Shown here: piece after piece, positions 22,071-25,666 of the stretch
Layout of the letters: the number at the start of each line of letters is the position of its first letter
How positions within the stretch are numbered: position 1 is the first letter of the stretch
Assembly: GCA_015661135.1 (NCBI GenBank)
Contig: JACVXW010000007.1
Span: forward strand, 3,062-37,446
DNA: 34,385 bases
Origin: Chloroflexota bacterium
GTDB taxonomy: Bacteria; Chloroflexota; Limnocylindria; Limnocylindrales; CSP1-4
Direction of reading: 5' to 3'
The notes under the pieces: model-generated
The model's input: the letters and a program-made list of their open reading frames with translations, nothing else
Told to the model about the DNA's origin: nothing
The model's database searches: none
Made by a program: the position numbers and the translations under genes

Positions 22071-22443
22071 TGGTGGAGATGGGGGAGAGTCGAACTCCCC
22101 GTCCAGAGCCCTTCGGCAGGAACCACTACGAGCGTGTCCGATCGTTTTCGTCGACCGTCCGGGCGGGGATCGGCACTCTCCCGGGTGGTCCAGTCACGTG
22201 TCTCTAGATCGAGCTTGCTCCCGGACTACGCGACGCTCGTCCGGGCTGCAGCCCCGCTGAATGACGCTTCCACGGCCCACGGGACGGAGGCCGCTTCCAC
22301 GCTCACCTTACCGCCTAAGCGGCGAGGGCGAGAGTCGACTGCTTGTTGGCAGTTGCTTCGATTTGCCGCCTGTTTAACGAGGCCTGACGGCACCTCGGCT
22401 CGCATTTCCTGTCTTCCGGACCCTGTCGAAACCACGCATCCCC
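22071..22443 (-). ncRNA. ssrA: Transfer-messenger RNA, tag (AT)ANKQSTLALAA
   Basis: Minus-strand 5' end GGGGATGCGTGGTTTCGACAGGGTC and 3' end GGACGGGGAGTTCGACTCTCCCCCATCTCCACCA pair as an acceptor stem; internal ORF GCC AAC AAG CAG TCG ACT CTC GCC CTC GCC GCT TAG. Confidence 0.96.
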
Positions 22444-24952: not shown

Positions 24953-25417
24953 TCAGCCCTTGCGCGCCTCGGCGATGTCGCGGTCCATCTGCCGCCGGGC
25001 GTCCCGCTCGGCGATGTCGCGCCGGCGGTCGTGGAGTTGCTTGCCGCGGGCCAGTCCAATCTCGACCTTGGCCCGTCCGCGCCCGTCGATGTAGACGCGA
25101 AGCGGGATCAGGGTGAGGCCCTTTGCCTTCGTCTTGCCGAGCAGCTGGTCGATCTCCATCCGGTGGAGGAGCAGCTTTCGATCGCGCTTGGCTTCATGGT
25201 TGTAGCGGCTGGCGCCTTCCCACGGGGCAATGTGGGCACCGACGAGCCAGGCCTCGGAGCGCTCGATCCGGGCGAACGAGTCACTGAGGTTGAGCTTGCC
25301 GGCCCGGAGCGACTTGATCTCCGTCCCGGTCAGCACGATCCCGGCCTCGATCGTGTCCTCGATCGAGTATTCGTACCTGGCCCTCCGGTTGAGGGCGATC
25401 GTCTTCTCCTCGCCCAT
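24953..25417 (-). CDS. smpB: SsrA-binding protein SmpB
   Basis: IALNRRARYEYSIEDTIEAGIVLTGTEIKSLRAGKLNLSDSFARI...DRKLLLHRMEIDQLLGKTKAKGLTLIPLRVYIDGRGRAKVEIGLARGKQLHDRR. Confidence 0.97.
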   Translation of the reverse strand: MGEEKTIALNRRARYEYSIEDTIEAGIVLTGTEIKSLRAGKLNLSDSFARIERSEAWLVGAHIAPWEGASRYNHEAKRDRKLLLHRMEIDQLLGKTKAKGLTLIPLRVYIDGRGRAKVEIGLARGKQLHDRRRDIAERDARRQMDRDIAEARKG

Positions 25418-25499: not shown

Positions 25500-25529
25500 C
25501 GAACGCCGGCCCTTTCGGACCGGCGTTCG
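25500..25529 (-). promoter_or_regulatory. RNA hairpin in smpB leader with GAAA tetraloop
   Basis: Minus strand CGAACGCCGGUCC-GAAA-GGGCCGGCGUUCG: 13-bp stem (one G-U). Confidence 0.75.
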
Positions 25530-25560
25530 ACTTGCGGCTGCCACCCGCACGGAAGACCGG

Positions 25561-25608
25561 CTAGACGGTCGACTCCGGCGAGGTGGTGCAATGACTGTGA
25601 CTTGACAT
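25561..25608 (-). CDS. Putative 15-aa leader peptide upstream of smpB
   Basis: AAAGGAGGTGAT Shine-Dalgarno, GGAGG to ATG spacing 9 nt; MSSHSHCTTSPESTV*. Confidence 0.45.
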   Translation of the reverse strand: MSSHSHCTTSPESTV

Positions 25609-25621
25609 TGCACATCACCTC
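25580..25621 (-). promoter_or_regulatory. Hairpin sequestering SD and AUG of the leader ORF
   Basis: Minus strand GAGGUG-AU(bulge)-GUGCAAUG / UCAAGUCACAGU loop / CAUUGCAC-CACCUC, 14 bp. Confidence 0.7.
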
Positions 25622-25637
25622 CTTTCGTTCGAGCCGA

Positions 25638-25666
25638 ACCCTAGCGGATGCCCGGCTCTCTGGCAA
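25638..25666 (-). promoter_or_regulatory. Putative promoter for leader-smpB transcript
   Basis: Minus strand TTGCCA - 17 bp - TAGGGT. Confidence 0.45.

Follow-up and report, generated by a model that had tools for sequence, protein, structure and literature searches.

The question raised by this locus is whether a tiny open reading frame (ORF) in front of smpB, with its Shine-Dalgarno sequence (SD) and start codon folded into a hairpin, is a leader that controls smpB or a gene in its own right. The ORF lies on the minus strand of the window, the whole stretch of 34,385 nucleotides from a Chloroflexota bacterium that was analysed, and the unit to which it belongs is flanked by a CtpA-type S41 protease gene and by smpB, as identified with Pfam. 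In the original prediction the hairpin was thought to be a thermosensor, a riboswitch platform or a translational attenuator ahead of a ribosome-rescue gene, with a DNA operator as the alternative. The window also contains a tmRNA gene (22071-22443, tag ANKQSTLALAA), which is on the minus strand like smpB and lies some 2.5 kb downstream of it. The features of the locus are collected in Table 1.

Table 1. Positions in the window of the features of the unit and of its downstream neighbour
Feature	Position	Strand	Basis or remark
Promoter-like pair	25638..25666	-	-35 TTGCCA 25666-25661, 17-nt spacer, -10 TAGGGT 25643-25638
Predicted transcription start	near 25631	-	inferred from the promoter-like pair
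Strand S (SD), AAAGGAGGTGAT	25614..25625	-	perfect 12-nt complement to the 16S rRNA 3' end
Micro-ORF ATG..TAG, MSSHSHCTTSPESTV*	25561..25608	-	start 25608-25606, TAG 25563-25561; 15 codons
Hairpin P1 (SD and start codon with strand A, codons 6-10)	25580..25621	-	fold, covariation
Strand A, anti-SD-like, inside the ORF, common to P1 and P2	25573..25593	-	fold, covariation
Hairpin P2 (strand A with post-stop strand S')	25542..25585	-	fold, covariation
P3, intrinsic-terminator-like hairpin CGAACGCCGGTCC-GAAA-GGGCCGGCGTTCG	25500..25529	-	compensatory pairs, arm covariation
smpB, downstream neighbour outside the unit	24953..25417	-	Pfam SmpB 196 bits; ATG at 25417

The promoter-like pair that had been proposed, TTGCCA-N17-TAGGGT, is present and is kept in relatives, with 82 of 84 units having such a pair 10-12 nt before the SD motif AAAGGAGG compared to 0.4% of shuffles. 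As the pair stands at a set distance from the SD, the start of transcription is placed upstream of the hairpin, and the predicted transcript includes it, as the earlier reading had it. The SD, described there as a near-perfect complement of the 16S rRNA tail, is in fact a perfect one: the 3' end of 16S is GGATCACCTCCTTTC in two genomes of the window's genus, and AAAGGAGGTGAT matches it over 12 nt, or over 13 nt if the mature 16S end includes the next C. The same string is single copy in its own 2.03-Mb genome.

The leader-sized ORF that follows is there too, with its 15 codons, and its reading frame is conserved over 84 relatives. Distances between landmarks inside the ORF are equal modulo 3 (17/20/23/26 and 22/25) in these units and after the stop codon all residues modulo 3 occur, in-frame stops are found in none of the 84 compared to 65 and 56 of them in the other two frames, and the stop codon itself varies (TAG 53, TAA 25, TGA 6). 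Given indels that are only in-frame, the absence of in-frame stops and the turnover among three stop codons, the comparison indicates that the micro-ORF is under selection as an ORF and is translated. Its length ranges from 13 to 27 codons across relatives and the peptide is highly variable; by inspection of the translations the peptides are short, polar or hydrophilic, and have no membrane stretch. No Pfam match was found for three of the longer relatives (22-26 residues), most of the peptides being too short for such a search. The start codon is GTG nearly throughout the window's family and ATG in the window itself, where the change is matched by the opposite base of P1 (G-C to A-U). The serine codon AGT makes up 73 of 201 in codons 2-6 of the units and 2 of 114 in genes of the window, and is strongly over-represented for GC-rich genomes. 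One of the six genomes of family f24 (G245, locus L368) keeps the hairpin strands and has TTACC where its sisters have TAACG, leaving the ORF without the usual stop codon.

The stem that was said to bury both the SD and the start codon is present as hairpin P1, in which GAGGTG(AT)GTGCAATG (25621-25606) pairs with CATTGCACCACCTC (25593-25580) over 14 bp with a 2-nt bulge. What was missing from the original prediction is a third strand, S', which lies after the stop codon and competes for strand A. When a 101-nt piece was folded (-42.5 kcal/mol compared to -32.9 for shuffles, z -2.97), CACC-U-CGCCGGAG paired with the post-stop GGGUGG to form P2 and the SD was left open. The apical loop of P2 contains the stop codon, and P2 is incompatible with the outer part of P1.

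Both helices, that of the SD strand with the anti-SD strand and its mutually exclusive alternative, are backed by covariation. Partner strands were swapped among one representative per family, in 22 families and with 5000 permutations. Cognate strands gave -24.1 kcal/mol compared to -19.1 when swapped for P1 (z -7.3) and -34.7 compared to -25.6 for P2 (z -9.0), with 0 of 5000 permutations reaching the cognate value in either case; the 22 families are not entirely independent, but swapping at family level is a strict control. The negative control pair of S with S' gave z -0.2. The pairing of P1, first read in one genome, is in this way conserved in relatives. Within a single family P2 covaries over 44 lineages (z -8.1), and in L036 and L039 a paired change is seen, with CACCATCTC as the middle strand and GATGGTG as its P2 partner. 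In the alignment of 81 distinct units from the order P1 looks invariant because the search pattern required the letters of the SD and anti-SD, and the independent evidence for P1 is given by units detected by other means as well as by other families. Among units the helices are better conserved than the peptide. A DNA operator, the alternative given for the inverted repeat, is unlikely, as the compensatory changes, in-frame indels and lack of in-frame stops indicate an RNA and a coding sequence.

For three families of the class the two states have nearly the same energy, and most other families favour P2; the mean difference between the P1 and P2 states is 1.3 kcal/mol in the window's family (f1), -1.3 in f2 and -0.5 in f5. 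Folding of the complete transcript with ViennaRNA gives no clean on-state, the SD being ~25-30% unpaired in the window's class, and the unit of the window keeps its start codon within inner P1 in both states in silico. One hairpin holding both the SD and the AUG would suit the RNA thermometer suggested in the original prediction, but in-silico melting up to 65 C never brings the pairing of the start codon below 86% and an alternative partner such as S' is not a thermometer feature, so that a thermometer is barely credible here.

The unit is ended by P3, whose arms covary with compensatory pairs (cognate z -10.6); the U-rich tail that follows it is weak in the window's family and clear in several other families. 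In the window 82 bases separate P3 from smpB. If the unit were a leader acting in cis on smpB, the read-through of P3 or the later translation of smpB would depend on whether the micro-ORF is translated and on how P1 and P2 fold. This is favoured by the order ctpA - unit - smpB, found at nearly all loci of the class Limnocylindria, by a P3 that has no strong U tract in f1, and by the gap from P3 to smpB, which shrinks to 6-26 nt in a few genera, g25 among them, where some read-through into smpB is plausible. However, no upstream strand was found that covaries with the 5' arm of P3 (z 0.37), and classical attenuation is therefore without support; an smpB attenuator with an antiterminator was rejected for lack of a covarying partner for P3. 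By eye, -10-like boxes precede smpB in many genera, and in one genome (G012) smpB is inverted, yet the unit is kept intact. The unit and smpB are 489 nt apart at locus L099.

Constant co-orientation upstream of smpB holds in Limnocylindria except for G012 and fails in the other classes read, where no smpB was found within about 1 kb of the unit. The neighbours there, by inspection of translations, are murI (f11), RNase H (f16), def (f80), recN (f59) and a LysM protein (f53 and f25), and in f25 the end of 23S rRNA also adjoins the unit (Rfam). With neighbours so varied, the smpB neighbourhood belongs to the class and not to the unit, and a leader of smpB is distinctly unlikely. Of what was originally proposed, translational gating by sequestration of the SD and start codon in RNA is supported, whilst its assignment to smpB is not. 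Judged from sequence comparison, the locus is a self-contained gene of ~140 nt with its own promoter and terminator-like hairpin.

The hairpin pattern was matched in 82 of the 126 genomes of the order, with no match to the reversed control. With a covariance model (R1) the unit was detected widely in the class, in 143 genomes out of 177, and also in families scattered through Chloroflexota. A second model (R2) was made from 14 units drawn from seven families. At E <= 1e-4 it gave hits in 132 Chloroflexota genomes out of 400, in almost every case a single hit per genome, with E-values that are rough (short calibration), assemblies that are MAGs and weakest hits that include false ones, for example L391. 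When units were read, the plan was found to recur in more than 20 Chloroflexota families. In an example from f76, P1 is formed by GTGATGCCC and GGGCATCAC and P2 by GGGCATCACAGC and GCTGTGATGCCC, and in Ktedonobacterales (L316) the anti-SD strand comes after the stop codon (ACATCACCTCCTTTCG).

Weak model hits at L162, L163, L309, L310, L314, L318 and L391 were read as false, that at L314 resembling a T-box leader (GGGTGGTACCGCGGG). Two different units are carried by G447 (f53), and the second units of G073:C18 and G114:C145 are identical or nearly identical to those of other genera and are probably MAG contamination. The unit is also carried by L206 and L245, records titled Steroidobacteraceae and Proteobacteria that are probably mislabelled MAGs. 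No plasmid relatives were found for the 141-base stretch of L357. On three viral contigs (L322, L323 and L324) an identical SD string, AAAGGAGGTGATGTGCAATG, precedes an ORF of 21-23 codons, and two of these ORFs contain Cys (MPTPKCIYCGGSHDSDWCPSK and MQCGKCGDYHTSSVCPGQPLM); these tiny ORFs were rejected as units, as the SD string is alike and the rest of the architecture is absent as read.

The unit is probably a micropeptide gene whose translation is gated by a bistable switch at the SD. Such a gene would consist of a promoter, an ORF of 13 to 27 codons and a terminator, with an mRNA that acts as a bistable switch of three strands. In P1, strand S (the super-SD with the spacer and start codon) would pair with strand A in the ORF and translation would be off, whereas in P2 strand A would pair with S' after the stop codon, the SD would be free and translation would be on. 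P1 would be first to form in the nascent RNA, and S', emerging later, would compete for A and rescue the SD; ribosomes reading through A would disrupt P1 too. The conserved frame, the promoter spacing, both helices, the terminator-like hairpin, the spread across the phylum and the independence from smpB are the parts of this scheme that come directly from comparing sequences; which state is off and which on, the order of folding, and a peptide rather than an RNA as the product are inferred. As the peptide varies greatly, the product could instead be the RNA.

It might be supposed that the RNA acts in trans, with 16S tails, or SDs on other mRNAs, bound by A or S' and the ORF setting only folding or stability. 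The 12-nt complement of the 16S tail, which occurs nowhere else in the genome, would fit with this, as would the imitation of the 16S tail by strand A and a peptide that is less conserved than the helices, but the frame is strictly conserved with turnover of its stop codon and strand A is paired in both states, and a trans-acting RNA is unlikely. As strand A resembles the 16S tail and strand S complements that tail over 12 nt, 30S subunits are the obvious competitor, and they would naturally compete for S. That free 30S is sensed, and is the signal, is speculation. A Chloroflexota-wide RNA gene in which the 16S tail and its mimic A contend for the super-SD, with ribosome supply setting P1 against P2, is a tentative idea and more doubtful than probable; if 30S sensing is true, the supply of ribosomes would set the amount of micropeptide or the RNA conformer that is made.

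A conserved gene of ~140 bases, nearly always single-copy, across much of Chloroflexota seems to have gone undescribed. Its length is below what gene callers pick up, and it is absent from Rfam, with no family at gathering score on the unit and only weak sub-threshold hits in loosened searches, and no earlier description was found in the literature searched, most subscription journals being outside that search. Its design, with an extreme SD, a mimic of the 16S tail in the ORF, exclusive helices, a stop codon in a hairpin loop and a terminator, leads to direct predictions on the control of translation initiation.

Several known systems share parts of this design. Chloroflexi-1 RNA (RF01698) is likewise a conserved RNA in Chloroflexota, but like the other Rfam families it scores below its gathering threshold on the unit. 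In dual-function small RNAs of the SgrS/SgrT type a small protein is also encoded on a short, terminator-ended transcript, whereas the ORF of the unit extends over the entire switch and has an exceptional SD. Leader-peptide attenuators of the ermC type have a tiny ORF, a strong SD and alternative hairpins, but in the unit the pairing would gate the tiny ORF itself and a terminator-like hairpin follows instead of a regulated gene.

The mRNAs of the type I toxin-antitoxin systems AapA3/IsoA3 and hok/Sok are alike in being short, in having local anti-SD strands, of which one is in the ORF, that mask the SD, and in having mutually exclusive hairpins able to form in the order of transcription. The unit could on this basis be a toxin mRNA silenced by metastable SD hairpins, as the mRNA of AapA3 from H. 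pylori has SD-sequestering hairpins, one with the anti-SD inside the ORF (PMC6733600). A toxin is very improbable, though, with peptides that are short, hydrophilic and without a membrane stretch, and a locus that is nearly always single copy and conserved within the class. Compared to both systems the peptide of the unit is hydrophilic and of 13-27 residues, the sequence is unrelated, the unit is nearly always found once per genome, and its alternative helix frees the SD.
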